Part shown: piece by piece, positions 1,975-13,633 of the stretch
Layout: each line of letters begins with the position of its first letter
Position numbering within the stretch: position 1 is the stretch's first letter
Source of the DNA: Ignavibacteriaceae bacterium
GTDB lineage: Bacteria; Bacteroidota; Ignavibacteria; Ignavibacteriales; Ignavibacteriaceae
Assembly: GCA_013388525.1 (NCBI GenBank)
Contig: JACAFA010000182.1
Span: forward strand, 1-14,475
Direction of reading: 5' to 3'
DNA: 14,475 nucleotides
The notes under the pieces: generated by a model
Told to the model about the DNA's origin: nothing
What the model saw: the letters and a program-made list of their open reading frames with translations, nothing else
Databases searched by the model: none
Translations under genes and position numbers: made by a program

Positions 1975-3762
1975 ATGTTGAATGAAATGAATTCGCCAAA
2001 GGCGAACCGATATTCTGGAAAAATAAAAATAGTTTGTTGTATGTTGCTTATAGTAGGTAGTTTTTCTTTTGAACAGCAGAGCAAAGAAGAAAAGTTGCAG
2101 CAACTAAAAAGTCGAGAGGATGTTAAGGTAACTGAGTTAGAAAAAGACCTGCTTAAAATAGAATACCCTAACGGTAAAGTGCTGTTAAAAAATATTGCTG
2201 ACTACCAGTATCCAGCATCCGGTATCAAGACAACCTATTCTCCAACTTACGACAGCACAATAATAGACCTTACAACTATTGATACAACCCTTTATTACTA
2301 TAAATACAAGTTTTGGCAGACAGTATTAATCTCCAATCGTAAATTTCCTATTATAGGTGATATTAATGGCAATGGAAGGGTTGAGTTATATGGCTTTGAA
2401 AAAGACTACACTACCGATTATACAAGCGTTGTTGCAAAAGAAATGAATGCAAACGGAACATTCGATTCGGTTTGGTGCTACAACCCGAGTACTCTTGCGC
2501 GAAATATTTATGATATTGACAGTGATGGAAGTTTGGATCTTCACTTAACTTCGGATGAAAGTGATACAGTTATTCATTGGGCGATAATGAAAAGTAAAAT
2601 TTTTACCAAGACTAATGATACATCACTTGCAATCAATCTATCATTTGAATTCCAGGCAGAAGATTCTAACACAGTACAGTATAATCCACGGTTTGCAATG
2701 CTGGATGGTGATTCGAGAACCGATTATATATACTTAGGTGCTCCCACAAGACAATACCTTGGAATTTATGAATATAACCCGGTAACAAATTCGCTTGATT
2801 CCGTCCTTCATTACAACTACACTGGCATAGATGACTGGGTTGAGGGTTTTGCAGTTGATGATTTTGATAATGATAATATCCCGGAAATTATTATTGGTGG
2901 AGTTTACGGTAAGGTTGCTTCATTTGAAAGTACCGGTGATAATGCTTACCAATTGATCTGGACAGGTGAAGTTCCTACTAATAATGCTTATATGCTATGC
3001 AGCACTGATGATATAGATCGGAATGGTAAGAAAGAATTATGGGTTGGCGGCGAAGCATTTTACAATGGCGTACCAATAATAAAATTTAGCTGTTTCGAAT
3101 CGAATGGTAACAACTCATACGAAATTGTTGGGCGAATAGATTTGGTTGGTGTTTTCACTTTCTATGCTTATAACATACAGGCAGTAGATGTAGATAATGA
3201 CGGGATAGATGAATTGATGGTTTGTATAGACGGAAATTTTCTCATCCTCAAATTTAACGGAAGCCCGGGACACCAAACTTATGAGGTATACTATATAAAA
3301 AAAGTCTCTGGTGAATACATCGCTTATTGCGGTGCAACAATGTATGATTTGGATTATGACGGCAATAAGGAAATATTAATAGATATGTATGACGATCCAC
3401 CTCAGCTTGGTAATATTAAATTTTTCACCTCACTATATACCCCAGATAGTTTATCGAGCGTAAATGAATCATCAGCAACTATTTATGATTATGTATTAGA
3501 ACAAAATTTTCCAAACCCATTCAATTCATCAACACAAATAAAATTTGTTATACCAAATACTTCTTTAGTAACTATTAAGGTTTATAATCTGTTAGGGAAA
3601 GAAATTACTGTTTTACTTAATCAAGAACTCCCACACGGAAGTTATACAATTAACTGGGAAGCAAGGGATGAGAAGAATTATTCTCTTCCTTCAGGAATAT
3701 ACTTTATAAAATTAAATGCCGGTAGTTTCAGCAAAACTATAAAGGCAGTTTTATTAAAATAA
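1975..3762 (+). CDS. Secreted FG-GAP/VCBS-like repeat protein with T9SS type A sorting domain (copy 2)
   Basis: Tandem paralogue of the 188-1945 gene, 595 residues, function unknown. It has the same order of parts: hydrophobic signal segment (about 17-32), charged segment, seven acidic repeat motifs, and a C-terminal T9SS sorting domain (about 507-595, with NFPNPFNSST, TIKVYNLLGKEI, LPSGIYFI, KAVLLK). The core (residues about 86-443) is about 97% identical to copy 1, while the signal region and the last 150 residues are much more diverged. The N-terminus is odd. The position matching copy 1's start Met is a Gly codon, and the frame extends about 15 residues upstream to ATG 1975 (or ATG 1987) through a palindrome at 1992-2006. 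This gives an unusually long, polar n-region before the hydrophobic segment. Another in-frame ATG at 2041 lies inside the hydrophobic stretch and would leave a poor signal. The end of the region reads SFEQQ rather than SLAQ, so cleavage is less clear. I favour 1975 or 1987 as the start. Confidence 0.85.
   Translation: MLNEMNSPKANRYSGKIKIVCCMLLIVGSFSFEQQSKEEKLQQLKSREDVKVTELEKDLLKIEYPNGKVLLKNIADYQYPASGIKTTYSPTYDSTIIDLTTIDTTLYYYKYKFWQTVLISNRKFPIIGDINGNGRVELYGFEKDYTTDYTSVVAKEMNANGTFDSVWCYNPSTLARNIYDIDSDGSLDLHLTSDESDTVIHWAIMKSKIFTKTNDTSLAINLSFEFQAEDSNTVQYNPRFAMLDGDSRTDYIYLGAPTRQYLGIYEYNPVTNSLDSVLHYNYTGIDDWVEGFAVDDFDNDNIPEIIIGGVYGKVASFESTGDNAYQLIWTGEVPTNNAYMLCSTDDIDRNGKKELWVGGEAFYNGVPIIKFSCFESNGNNSYEIVGRIDLVGVFTFYAYNIQAVDVDNDGIDELMVCIDGNFLILKFNGSPGHQTYEVYYIKKVSGEYIAYCGATMYDLDYDGNKEILIDMYDDPPQLGNIKFFTSLYTPDSLSSVNESSATIYDYVLEQNFPNPFNSSTQIKFVIPNTSLVTIKVYNLLGKEITVLLNQELPHGSYTINWEARDEKNYSLPSGIYFIKLNAGSFSKTIKAVLLK
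1992..2006 (+). repeat. GC-rich palindrome inside the N-terminal coding extension
   Basis: TTCGCC-AAA-GGCGAA is a perfect 6-bp inverted repeat with a 3-base loop. It lies in the stretch that copy 2 has and copy 1 lacks, and it encodes SPKAN. The same CGCC-AAA-GGCG core occurs on the coding strand of the 11441-13021 gene (11519-11533), where it is read in a different frame. Confidence 0.6.
2247..3302 (+). repeat. Long direct repeat, copy 2 (core of tandem paralogue)
   Basis: Partner of 421-1476 (offset 1826 bases, no indels seen). Such a pair is a substrate for gene conversion, or for deletion between the two genes. Confidence 0.85.
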
Positions 3763-4940: not shown

Positions 4941-5523
4941 ACCTGATGTATTTATTAAACAATACACTGCCTATGAAATCTGGAGACGGATTTTATACTT
5001 AGGGAACTGGAGTTCATGGTCATTAGTAGCATCCAAAAGTGGTACGGTTTCAGAATTCATTGATAACGAAATTCAGGGAGTTGGACTAGCAGATGTATAC
5101 ACGGTTGAATATAAAATGAAAGCCAGAGATTATAATAATAATGTGTCAGGTTTTTCATCAACTGTTTCAATTGAGTTCCAGCGTTATTCACCAAATGCTC
5201 CGGGTGGTTCAGGTAGCTGGGTAAATAAATCTACAGAATCAGGCGGGAATAACATTAGCTATGTTTATACCTTATCACAGAATTACCCAAACCCATTCAA
5301 TCCAACAACCACAATAAGTTATGCAATCAAAACAGCAGGAGAAGTAACGTTAAAAGTTTACGATATGCTTGGAATAGAAATAGCTTCATTAGTAAATGAA
5401 ATAAAAGAAGCAGGGAATTATTCGGTTGAATTTAACGCCGCTACTTTACCGAGTGGGATATATGTTTATAGACTTACATCCGGCAATTTTGTCGACACAA
5501 AGAAACTTATTTTGCTCAAATAG
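4897..5523 (+). pseudogene. Frameshifted C-terminal part: rest of FnIII domain plus T9SS sorting domain
   Basis: This frame opens after a TAG at 4894-4896 and reads without a stop to the TAG at 5521-5523. From about 4931 it completes the FnIII domain of the preceding frame (NTEPDVFIKQYTAYEIWRR, SSWSLVAS, YTVEYKMKARDYNNNVSGFSS). A linker follows, then a complete T9SS type A sorting domain: NYPNPFNPTT, VTLKVYDMLGIEI, LPSGIYVYRL and terminal KKLILLK. No signal peptide or credible start is present; the ATG at 5116 lies inside the FnIII domain. One extra base around 4925-4934 (CAAATTCAATAC) explains the break: removing one A or T restores a single frame of about 580 codons. Either a true inactivating indel or a sequencing/assembly error is possible. 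The bases do not form a known programmed-frameshift signal. Confidence 0.8.
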
Positions 5524-11234: not shown

Positions 11235-11284
11235 AGCGTACCTCCGATATTTTATTAATTAAGAAATATTTTTTTGAAAGTAAT

Positions 11285-11314
11285 TAAAAATACCCTAATA
11301 ACAAGTAAAACAAA
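11285..11314 (-). promoter_or_regulatory. Possible promoter of mscL
   Basis: On the minus strand TTTG (complement of 11311-11314) is followed after 18 bases by TATTTTTA (complement of 11285-11292), seven of eight matches to TAnnTTTG. The spacer is one or two bases shorter than usual. It would give a leader of roughly 45 bases before ATG 11234. The rest of 11235-11440 is AT-rich and holds no gene. Confidence 0.3.
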
Positions 11315-11373
11315 AAAATAAAATAGGTAAACGTGAAGGTGATTTAAAAAACAAATTTTGAATTGTAAATAAT

Positions 11374-11401
11374 AAACCCGATTAATCAAGTAACCGGGTT
11401 T
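11374..11401 (-). terminator. Probable terminator of the Asp-box T9SS protein gene
   Basis: AAACCCG (11374-11380) and CGGGTTT (11395-11401) pair around a 14-base loop. It lies about 40 bases after the stop of the 11441-13021 gene and is followed on the minus strand by ATTATTT. The longer T-run is on the plus strand, so it may work in both directions. Confidence 0.65.
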
Positions 11402-11440
11402 TTTATTAAATAGATGACTTAAAATTATTTGTCAAAGTGA

Positions 11441-13021
11441 TTACCTCAATAAAACCATCCTTTTAGTTTGGACGAAATCTCCGGCTATAAGTGTGTAGAA
11501 ATATACGCCGGAGGCGTATCCGCCTTTGGCGGAAACTCCATTGGACAGACTAATAGTCTGTCCTACATTAAATTCAACTTCATATTCACCTGCAGATTTT
11601 TCTTCCTGAACCAGAGTTGCTATCTCATTTCCCAAAACATCATAAACTATTAAGCTTACAAATCCTCCAACGGGAATTTGATATTGTATTTTTGTAGATG
11701 GATTAAACGGATTTGGGTAATTCTGTTCTAGATTAAATGAAAAAGTCTGAACAACATCAACTTCAATTATTTCTGAATATTTAAAGCTTCCGTCAAAATC
11801 AATTTGCTTTAATCTGTAATAGTAAGTCCCTTCATCAATATTCTCATCAATAAATGAATAGAAATGATGTTCGGTTGAAGTACCAAAACCTGGCACATAA
11901 CCAATCGGCTCAAAAATTAAATTTTCAGTTCCAATTTCTGAATTTGAATTACTGCGTTCAATCTTGAAACCACTATTATTTAACTCTGTGGCAGTTTCCC
12001 AATTCAATTTTACTATACCGTTGTTTAATGTTGCCCTGAAGACAGACAGTTCAACCGGAATTTGTGTGTCAGTAAAAATCCAGACACCGCCGTTTGTAGT
12101 TCCACTTACGCACACCATTATTTTATTTTCGAAAGCAAGAATTTTATTTGAGCTAAATGTTAAATTGTGATTTACAAATGAAGAGCCTCCATTTGTTGAT
12201 TTAAATACTCCTCCATTTCCTGCGATGTATATGTCTTCAATTAAATCAAGTGTTGCTCCACGCATAGCAGCTGGTTGGTTCCCGACGGTTACCCAGGTTG
12301 ATCCGCCATCAGTTGATTTGTTAAATGGGTATGGGGAGCTGGTGGTTGCGATATAAATTTCATTAGCGCTGGTTTGCAAAATCTGCCAGACATTCAAAGC
12401 AATTGTGGAAGTTCCGAATGTTGCTCCACCATCTGTTGATATAAAAAATCCATTTAAAGAAGCCGAAGAAGATCCGGCATAAATTCTATCAGCATTAAAT
12501 TTATCCACGGCAATCGAAACGATGGTAAAAGTCTGTGCACCTGTATTTGTGAATGTTACCCCGAAATCAGTGCTTCGCCAGACACCGCCGTTAGTAACGC
12601 CGACAAATATATGACCATTCTTTCCACAAGCAACAGTGTTTACGTTATTTCCTCCAAATGTGCTTGCAGGCACTGTTGTAAAACTTTGCCCACCATCAGT
12701 AGAGATGATCAAACCATTAGAAACATTTGCAGCATAAATGTTATTCAAAGAGTCGCAGGCGATTTCTAAATAGTTTGATACCCCGGTTGAATAAACATTA
12801 GTCCACGAATCTCCACCATCGGTTGATTTAAAGATTCCTCTTGCAGTTCCTGATGTTCCGGCAAAAATGTTACCGGCAAAATCTTTTGCTATGGACCACA
12901 TTGAAAAACCATCAACATGTCTTACCCAGGTCTGTGAAAGATTTAATTGAGATGCGAGTATAAGAATAATTACTACCGAGAAGCAGCATCTCCACGAAGA
13001 GAAAAAGTAGAATTTATTCAT
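11441..13021 (-). CDS. Secreted Asp-box beta-propeller protein with T9SS type A sorting domain
   Basis: 526 residues, predicted cell-surface or extracellular. A signal peptide covers about 1-30 (polar MNKFYFFSSWRCC, then VVIILILAS...LSQ). Residues about 31-320 form a BNR/sialidase-like propeller with six Asp-box motifs of type S-T-D-G-G-x-[ST]-[WF], near residues 66, 107, 150 (STDFGVTF, degenerate), 195, 236 and 275. An FnIII-like module follows (about 322-423, VKLNWETATE...GFKIERS...YYYRLKQIDFDG). The T9SS sorting domain (about 428-526) has NYPNPFNPST, VSLIVYDVLGNEI, ASGVYFYTL and terminal KRMVLLR. Between the usual EFN and ASGVYF motifs it carries about 13 extra residues encoded by a cluster of palindromes at 11503-11563. 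The ligand is unknown; no sialidase active-site set is evident, so a structural or binding role is likely. AAGGG lies eight bases before ATG 13021. Confidence 0.9.
   Translation of the reverse strand: MNKFYFFSSWRCCFSVVIILILASQLNLSQTWVRHVDGFSMWSIAKDFAGNIFAGTSGTARGIFKSTDGGDSWTNVYSTGVSNYLEIACDSLNNIYAANVSNGLIISTDGGQSFTTVPASTFGGNNVNTVACGKNGHIFVGVTNGGVWRSTDFGVTFTNTGAQTFTIVSIAVDKFNADRIYAGSSSASLNGFFISTDGGATFGTSTIALNVWQILQTSANEIYIATTSSPYPFNKSTDGGSTWVTVGNQPAAMRGATLDLIEDIYIAGNGGVFKSTNGGSSFVNHNLTFSSNKILAFENKIMVCVSGTTNGGVWIFTDTQIPVELSVFRATLNNGIVKLNWETATELNNSGFKIERSNSNSEIGTENLIFEPIGYVPGFGTSTEHHFYSFIDENIDEGTYYYRLKQIDFDGSFKYSEIIEVDVVQTFSFNLEQNYPNPFNPSTKIQYQIPVGGFVSLIVYDVLGNEIATLVQEEKSAGEYEVEFNVGQTISLSNGVSAKGGYASGVYFYTLIAGDFVQTKRMVLLR
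11503..11563 (-). repeat. Cluster of three palindromes inserted in-frame in a T9SS sorting domain
   Basis: Three perfect inverted repeats are packed into 61 bases. ATACGCC/GGCGTAT (11503-11509 and 11513-11519) has a 3-base loop. TCCGCC/GGCGGA (11519-11524 and 11528-11533) has a TTT loop on the plus strand. GGACAGACTA/TAGTCTGTCC (11543-11552 and 11554-11563) has a single central base. The last is exactly seven codons (GQTISLS). The cluster encodes GQTISLSNGVSAKGGYASGV; the sorting domains of the other cargo genes lack most of it. Confidence 0.8.
12978..12992 (-). repeat. Imperfect palindrome in the signal-peptide coding region
   Basis: GAGAAGCAGCATCTC on the plus strand is self-complementary except at symmetric A/A positions, with arms GAGA-x-GC and GC-x-TCTC. 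It encodes part of the unusual WRCCFS segment in the n-region. It may be another short palindromic insertion, or chance. Confidence 0.3.
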
Positions 13022-13032
13022 GACACGTACCC

Positions 13033-13121
13033 TTTCAATTAGTTTGAAAAAGTTATTATCGCTTACAGAGAATGCGATATAGAGGAGTTATTATATTCAG
13101 TTTACACAAGATTTTGTAAAC
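13033..13121 (-). promoter_or_regulatory. Leader with three successive inverted repeats before the Asp-box gene
   Basis: TTTCAA/TTGAAA (13033-13038, 13044-13049), TATCGC/GCGATA (13057-13062, 13074-13079) and GTTTACA/TGTAAAC (13100-13106, 13115-13121) follow one another upstream of ATG 13021. The last has an 8-base spacer and is a plausible operator. On the minus strand TATAAT lies just downstream of it. I cannot identify a confident promoter here. Confidence 0.35.
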
Positions 13122-13189
13122 GCTGGATATTTATGTATTAACTTAGAAAATAATTACAAAACAATCCAGCATCAATTGTTAAGAATAAA

Positions 13190-13633
13190 CTAATTATCCA
13201 ATAATCTTCTGTGGTAATTAATTTGTCCGAGATGATAATTGAGGTGTGTAGTTAAATGTATAAGGAAATATTCTGTAGTCATTTCATAACCGAAAACGTT
13301 TATAGGGAAAGTTTTTTGAAGTGCTTCTTCTTTCAAACTCTGTAAAGTTTTCTGTACAATTTCAGCTGTCAATTCAATTTCCGCCAATAATTCACGAATC
13401 GGAACATTCTTCTTGCTGAACTCAGCATCGCGATTTCGGATATAACCAGAATTGCCAAGTACAGTACCAATGAAATGCTGAAGGTTGCCGCAAAGGTGAA
13501 GACAAAGATTTCCTGCTGAGTTTTTAATATTTCCTGAAATTTCCCAGATTTTCTTTTCATCTTTGAAGGAAGATATTTCTGTTTTCAGTTTTTCGAGATC
13601 GCGAAGGAAGAGTTGTGTTAATATTTTGATCAT
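13190..13633 (-). CDS. DinB-like protein, DUF1572 family
   Basis: 147 residues, cytoplasmic four-helix bundle of the DinB/YfiT-like metalloprotein superfamily. Family features include the helix GNLCLHLCGNLQHFIG with H46 and H53, then YIRNRDAEFS (64-73), which is characteristic of DUF1572. The C-terminal helix is YFLIHLTTHLNYHLGQINYHRRLL, with H126, H130 and H134. A divalent metal is expected to bind between H46 and the C-terminal histidines. Related proteins include thiol-S-transferases, but no substrate can be named here. Length is slightly short but normal for the family. It lies between the pckA terminator and the Asp-box gene on the same strand, so it probably has its own promoter within 13634-13683. 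Confidence 0.85.
   Translation of the reverse strand: MIKILTQLFLRDLEKLKTEISSFKDEKKIWEISGNIKNSAGNLCLHLCGNLQHFIGTVLGNSGYIRNRDAEFSKKNVPIRELLAEIELTAEIVQKTLQSLKEEALQKTFPINVFGYEMTTEYFLIHLTTHLNYHLGQINYHRRLLDN

Follow-up and report, generated by a model that had tools for sequence, protein, structure and literature searches.

In the window (the whole stretch of Ignavibacteriaceae DNA that was analysed, 14,475 nucleotides), an encoded T9SS sorting domain very likely holds two in-frame palindromic elements in its β5β6 loop, a GTAG REP that was likely moved by a RAYT and an untagged 15-bp CG-rich palindrome pair. The features are collected in Table 1. The host protein matches PF07494 with 22 bits and TIGR04183 with 32.3 bits, both above cut-off (23 bits for TIGR04183), and the Pfam Por_Secre_tail model scored 17.9 bits on the same protein, under its cut-off of 27 bits. 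The AlphaFold2 model of the sorting domain has a mean pLDDT of 80.3 and features six strands; modelled β strands and a curated model match at the C-terminus (TIGR04183) are what characterizes a type A sorting domain. The expanded loop lies between strands 48-55 and 75-83, and parts of it have a pLDDT below 50 while the adjoining strands are well predicted. If the modelled strands are numbered β2-β7 as in the seven-strand scheme of PMC11285876, the expanded loop would correspond to β5β6. A Foldseek search with the domain model returned no match at E ≤0.001, with PorZ and a T9SS substrate chain at E 0.012-0.019, and the sequence profile of the domain matches the T9SS sorting domain chain 8glj_D with an E of 2e-4. 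Elsewhere in the window, the adjacent T9SS-type proteins at 188-1945 and 1975-3762 are very similar and represent a tandem duplication, and by eye their sorting domains are more diverged than the rest.

Table 1. Positions of the host gene, its sorting domain and the palindromic elements in the window.
Feature	Positions	Strand	Basis
Host gene for a secreted protein of 526 aa that has BNR/propeller-like repeats and a C-terminal T9SS sorting domain	11441..13021	-	Open frame; PF07494, TIGR04183
T9SS type A sorting domain, 96 residues modelled	11444..11731	-	TIGR04183; AlphaFold2 model
Expanded loop, 18 codons, VGQTISLSNGVSAKGGYA	11513..11566	-	Orthologue alignment; AlphaFold2 model
Element 1, assigned as GTAG-tagged REP, GTAGGACAGACTATTAGTCTGTCC, 8 codons VGQTISLS	11543..11566	-	Identical 24 bp in L243; family in relatives; hairpins sharing its core on both sides of a RAYT
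Element 2, first palindrome TCCGCC-AAA-GGCGGA, 5 codons SAKGG	11519..11533	-	Family TCCGCCNNNGGCGGA in 45/61 family genomes
Element 2, second palindrome TACGCC-TCC-GGCGTA (the next base adds a further pair, ATACGCC/GGCGTAT); the conserved SGVY is encoded here as well	11503..11519	-	Head-to-tail pairs in relatives
Comparison sorting domain, short loop EFN-AATLP-SGIY	5269..5523	+	Open frame list; TIGR04183

From EFN to SGVY the coding strand reads GTA GGA CAG ACT ATT AGT CTG TCC AAT GGA GTT TCC GCC AAA GGC GGA TAC GCC, and then TCC GGC GTA. This gives 18 residues, EFN-VGQTISLSNGVSAKGGYA-SGVY, compared to 5 in the comparison domain, i.e. 13 extra. The repeat scan located the palindromes ATACGCC-gga-GGCGTAT at 11503-11519 (7-bp arms), TCCGCC-ttt-GGCGGA at 11519-11533 (6-bp arms) and GGACAGACTA-a-TAGTCTGTCC at 11543-11563 (10-bp arms), the last of which is 21 bp or seven codons long and encodes GQTISLS. 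It is continued by CTAC at 11563-11566, which makes it GTAG-GACAGACTATTAGTCTGTC on the coding strand. The second palindrome of element 2 (TACGCC..GGCGTA) features a mirrored change relative to the first. The first-pass annotation had described three perfect inverted repeats in an intact gene, about 13 residues more than in the comparison domain and a 10-bp-arm palindrome with a 1-base centre that keeps the frame at exactly seven codons, and the sequence, the repeat scan and the open 526-aa frame agree with it on coordinates, frame and lengths.

A lone palindrome with 10-bp arms is unremarkable in a 14.5-kb window (1 observed versus 0.22 expected, from 60 order-2 Markov windows). The amino acid sequence does not account for all three palindromes together: with the residues fixed and codons drawn at the usage of the window, their exact probabilities are 1.4e-4, 5.7e-4 and 1.8e-3, with a product of 1.4e-10, and the observed palindromic cover was reached by 0 of 20,000 synonymous shuffles. 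A chance origin is ruled out by these two results. The joint probability under synonymous codon choice also argues against selection of the residues for protein function, e.g. recognition by the export or cleavage machinery, with the palindromic DNA as a by-product; this explanation is barely credible, although the small glycine-rich residues fit the loop. Two further candidates were set aside. A short SGV..SGV repeat around SAKGGYA resembles a target duplication, but its DNA copies differ and no duplication is claimed. MITEs are described in the available part of PMC3733652 as 70-300 bp long with terminal inverted repeats of 15-30 bp, whereas the elements in the window are 24 and ~30 bp long and are single hairpins.

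The comparisons that follow were made in related genomes and not in the window's own genome. Neighbouring aroE, used as the query over species-representative contigs, identified one locus, L001, from an Ignavibacteriaceae MAG, with a best segment that is 91% identical. L001 is collinear with the window over most of the overlap but lacks the T9SS host gene, and the matches to window positions 11267 and 13203 are ~60 bp apart there. The window's 11267-13203 corresponds to 10248-10310 of L001, so the entire T9SS gene is missing from the collinear locus of the closest relative found and the gene itself is variable at this place. Orthologues were sought with residues 1-430 of the host protein in 97 relatives. 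This search gave matches in 83 of them at E 1e-20, mostly distant paralogues, and the five near-full-length matches (60-74% identity, next best 35%) were taken as orthologues. Four of the five have loops of five codons (ASKIS, AGSLA, AANLP and GSNLS), and the fifth, GHSDGGQNLS, is a different palindrome, ATTCTGAC-GGAG-GTCAGAAT. The window's residues are missing from all of these orthologues, which is contrary to selection for protein function as well.

The two parts of the expanded loop are distributed independently. VGQTISLS was found in 8 of 120 listed proteins, a count that is biased because the bait contained VGQTISLS, and 6 of these 8 have no element-2-like residues; family 2 is in turn widespread without element 1. 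From this distribution, the loop is two palindrome families of DNA side by side and not one element. The single 61-bp intragenic element that had been proposed is thus correct with regard to the palindromes, which are real, but it joins two families and overlooks the GTAG tag at the 5′ end of the longest palindrome.

Judged by its sequence, element 1 is a GTAG-tagged REP. In the available text of PMC6006769, the tag of such repeats, GTAG or GTGG, is placed 0-2 nt away on the 5′ side of the hairpin, which has a stem of 7-20 bp and a short loop. Element 1 follows this rule in tag adjacency, stem and loop: GTAG-GACAGACT-ATT-AGTCTGTC has a spacing of 0 nt and forms an 8-bp stem with a 3-nt loop or a 9-bp stem with a 1-nt loop. 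The strict untagged palindrome was rejected as the family signature. With ≤1 mismatch it is rare, at 3 places in 2 of 294 sampled genomes of the class compared to 2 places for the reversed control, and a clean signal is obtained only with GTAG and a free inner stem. The tagged pattern GTAGGACAGN{5,12}CTGTCC occurs at 8 places in 6 of 97 relatives (reversed control 0), namely in three sorting-domain β5β6 loops, in one unrelated gene and at four intergenic places. The sorting-domain copies encode VGQTISLS in G321 (identical over 24 bp), VGQDNILS in G324 and VGQESIPV in G001, while the G216 copy, read in the same frame, encodes VGQIYNLS within an unrelated gene. Additionally, a one-mismatch copy encodes VGQTFSLS in a sorting domain of G166, and G060 features two more one-mismatch places, one in a doubtful 51-aa frame and one intergenic. 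In an alignment of nine copies, 8 of them distinct and excluding the 25-bp copy of G001 and the second copy of G325, 98.6% of the stem cells are paired, three pairs are changed on both sides and the covariation score was reached by 0 of 500 shuffles. The five encoded peptides vary in their residues while the stem remains paired, which again speaks against protein function as the explanation.

A second pattern, GTAGNACAGACTNNNAGTCTGTNC, was found at 13 places in 5 of 59 relatives (control 0), with at most 6 copies per genome, and its two outer N positions are complementary at 13 of 13 places. Twelve of these places are outside sorting domains, around RAYTs or intergenic; one place, near the end of a contig piece, falls in a predicted 62-aa frame in one of the three loci that overlap there. 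Dispersed, mostly intergenic copies, as expected of GTAG REPs, are therefore found for element 1 in relatives. The tag is on the coding strand in 10 of 10 in-gene GTRG-tagged copies compared (window, L003, L085, L091, L095, L116, L240, L241, L243 and L245).

The candidate mover of element 1 is encoded in relatives. The RAYT of G321 (L272:1276-1872) matches NF047646 with 88.1 bits (cut-off 80), and GTAG-xACAGACTATTAGTCTGT-x hairpins lie on both sides of it, 11 bp upstream of the start and 3 bp downstream of the stop codon. The core of these hairpins, ACAGACTATTAGTCTGT or its reverse complement, is identical to that of the window, and two further copies lie downstream. A RAYT flanked by the same repeat, another mark of GTAG REPs, is thus present for element 1 in relatives' genomes. 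In G080 a putative RAYT-like frame has copies of the element 1 family on both sides, 19 bp upstream and 9 bp downstream. The G001 RAYT on C180 has an NF047646 score of 79.6 bits, just below the cut-off of 80, and is flanked by GTAG-CTCAGG..CCTGAG; these arms are common to the F3 loop inserts and the middle differs, and this RAYT was counted as supporting but not decisive. The window's element 1 is tied by sequence to a RAYT family through the genomes of relatives. A second Y1 transposase group (L130, L142, L133, L140, L124, L141 and others) was rejected as the mover, since its flanking CCACGAC..GTCGTGG-like palindromes are unlike the loop inserts.

Element 2 belongs to an untagged family. The pattern TCCGCCNNNGGCGGA is present in 45 of 61 family genomes with up to 47 copies, and the reversed control gave single matches in 3 of 61. 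Contexts were determined for 21 of 21 copies in G001, 26 of 26 in G126, 12 of 12 in G258 and 11 of 12 in G252, with frames called by a simple longest-frame rule. Of these 70 copies, 33 are intergenic and 37 are within frames, 25 of them in sorting domains (20 in β5β6, 4 in the NPF motif and 1 in β2β3) and 12 elsewhere. In G001, 6 of 8 in-gene copies are in sorting-domain loops, which were put at ~1% of the coding DNA (P ~2e-11, for 274 candidate domains and a loop size that was assumed). Head-to-tail pairs are frequent, as in the window. L193 and L194 of G258 carry a pair in frame in the conserved first part of the sorting domain, as NPF-SAGGGSAFGG-NPS and NPF-SAGGGSAYGG-NPT, and in L171 (G126) and L157 (G001) the family is near the N-terminus in a similar context, SAVGGFF..ATVRYVS, in or beside a hydrophobic signal-peptide-like stretch. 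No GTAG or GTGG tag is located beside element 2 in the window, or as a rule among the 70 copies of the four genomes, and family 2 was rejected as a tagged REP on this ground. A CGTC tag is also absent from element 2 in the window, where GGAGTT precedes it on the coding strand, and no mover of element 2 was found in the relatives examined.

The in-gene copies read TCC GCC NNN GGC GGA in 36 of 37 cases, and this single dominant phase is a point in favour of selection for protein function. There is another reading, in which the palindromes are RNA signals, either intrinsic terminators or mRNA-stabilising hairpins, and T runs follow some intergenic family-2 copies, e.g. in G126. It is very improbable for the window, where the hairpins are in a coding frame ~60-125 bases before the stop codon with no T run after them and no Rfam family matches the palindromes, and the loop location and single phase would be unexpected for terminators.

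A survey of G001, the nearest relative in the genome set, places the window's loop among many. The survey covered 999 kb, picked for sorting-domain-rich contigs and family-2 sites, and a sequence rule identified 99 domains. The β5β6 loop has 8-19 residues in 35 of the 99, compared to mostly 5. Palindromes beyond synonymous shuffles (p<0.05) were detected in 12 of the 35 expanded loops versus 2 of the 64 short ones; the other 23 expansions are not detectably palindromic and may be decayed or of other origin. Insert families that are also found outside the domains include TTCCGG..CCGGAA (12 copies in genes with sorting domains, 6 between genes and 1 in another gene), GTRG-CTCAGG..CCTGAG (2 in sorting-domain genes, 3 intergenic) and GTRG-GGACA..TGTCC (2 and 4, respectively). 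Each family is confined to one loop and mostly to one phase. In one tandem pair (83.6% identity, 195 residues) the two members differ by an insertion of 12 bp. In a tree of the domain cores with the loops removed (99 domains), F2 required 12 changes for 12 inserts (shuffled mean 11.5) and F1 required 8 for 8 (7.8), and the inserts therefore do not follow the descent of the domains, in a tree that is weak (62 columns, 12 starred, i.e. well-supported, of 96 inner branches).

The expansions are distributed unevenly over the domain. Among 70 G001 domains, expansions of at least 3 residues occur in β2β3 (17), β5β6 (29) and β6β7 (6) and in neither β3β4 nor β4β5 (0 each), where the domain-picking rule limits the size of a β3β4 change that could be detected. 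Recurring inserts in L080-L119 and L150-L169 of G001 resemble TLRQAQSDI, IASGAKQSQ and TLSGVEG in β2β3 and LVSALQSKDGKAG and NLPAGQAG in β6β7; they are in part palindromic and in part also intergenic. In the available portion of PMC11285876, β3β4, reported as essential, and the C-terminus are described as important for function, and RgpB with 11 residues in place of 3 in β5β6 was exported, cleaved and anchored as in the control. The loop pattern would then reflect tolerance, i.e. the elements land more widely and survive where the harm is small. A T9SS sorting domain is also listed under the rotifer Rotaria sp. (P0080), which represents bacterial contamination or transfer.

There is also the question of whether each loop was entered by insertion. 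The inserts could have spread mainly by recombination between sorting domains, as gene conversion or domain swapping, with few insertions and with the window's loop acquired ready-made. P0004 and P0025, which have different passengers, both feature element 1 followed by element-2-like residues, each insert family stays in one loop, and the bait-biased VGQTISLS count points in the same direction. This account is nonetheless the less likely one, since the insert labels do not track the domain tree (a pattern that short conversion tracts would also give), both families are also intergenic and in unrelated genes, and a RAYT carries the element 1 hairpin core. Insertion, and not exchange between sorting domains alone, would have placed both elements in the loop, with element 1 moved by a RAYT-type single-strand transposase; exchange may spread some inserts. 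The inserts would persist because the loop tolerates extra residues and the domain is cut off after export in many cargoes, and lengths divisible by three would keep their cost in the β5β6 loop low.

On the earlier suggestions, the outcome is favourable overall, from tests run in related genomes. Copies inside and between genes were sought and both palindrome families recur, the orthologous sorting domains lack the insert in 5 of 5 cases, with a different palindrome in the fifth, and a RAYT gene was found in a relative with a matching hairpin on both sides. The interpretation of the first-pass annotation is supported by these results. A palindromic repeat family in Ignavibacteria holds in that the families recur in relatives, but the strict untagged form of the element 1 palindrome is at the level of the control over the class. 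Likewise, the RAYT-type mover is likely for element 1, whose hairpin core flanks the RAYT of G321, and does not extend to element 2, for which no mover was found.

The expanded loops amount to a natural map of where a secretion signal tolerates insertions, with β2β3, β5β6 and β6β7 expanded and β3β4 never, and this map agrees with the published mutants from another genus. The many similar target domains per genome make REP insertion, phase choice and tolerance countable. The recurring loop sequences in public T9SS proteins are in part mobile DNA and not protein function, which is a warning for their interpretation. A broader and rather doubtful proposal is that sorting domains are genome-wide landing sites for unrelated palindromic elements, that hairpins promote exchange of loop segments and that repeats and export repertoire co-evolve; if true, the elements would gain low-cost, frame-neutral homes in the loops of a domain that is discarded after export.

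A literature search, with most subscription papers and preprints outside its scope, did not find palindromic repeats described in T9SS sorting domains. The new observations are GTAG REPs with RAYTs in Ignavibacteria and several palindrome families concentrated in T9SS sorting-domain loops. REPs in frame inside genes are already known from PMC3733652, which, in the part available, reports GTAG repeats in Proteobacteria, Cyanobacteria, Chloroflexi and PVC and not in Ignavibacteria, with in-gene hosts that include replication and repair genes. Element 1 resembles the GTAG REP/RAYT systems of PMC3733652 and PMC6006769, as far as these are described in the accessible sections, in having GTAG directly 5′ of a short perfect hairpin, intergenic and in-frame copies and a RAYT flanked by the hairpin. 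It differs from the GTAG REPs in the same part of PMC3733652 in that the main in-gene host is the sorting domain of secreted proteins and that there are few copies per genome (≤6). The Rickettsia RPEs, reported as CGTC-tagged in the available text of PMC3733652, are similar in that an in-frame palindrome adds residues and the protein stays open. The designation 'RPE-like' consequently fits the insertion behaviour and not the membership, given that the third palindrome, element 1, is GTAG-tagged in contrast to the CGTC of RPEs and element 2 carries neither tag. With regard to the T9SS C-terminal domains, natural extra β5β6 residues are likewise found in PorU and PorZ; these residues form a β-hairpin whose origin is unstated in the available portion of PMC11285876, while the expansions in Ignavibacteria are in good part palindromic DNA repeats.
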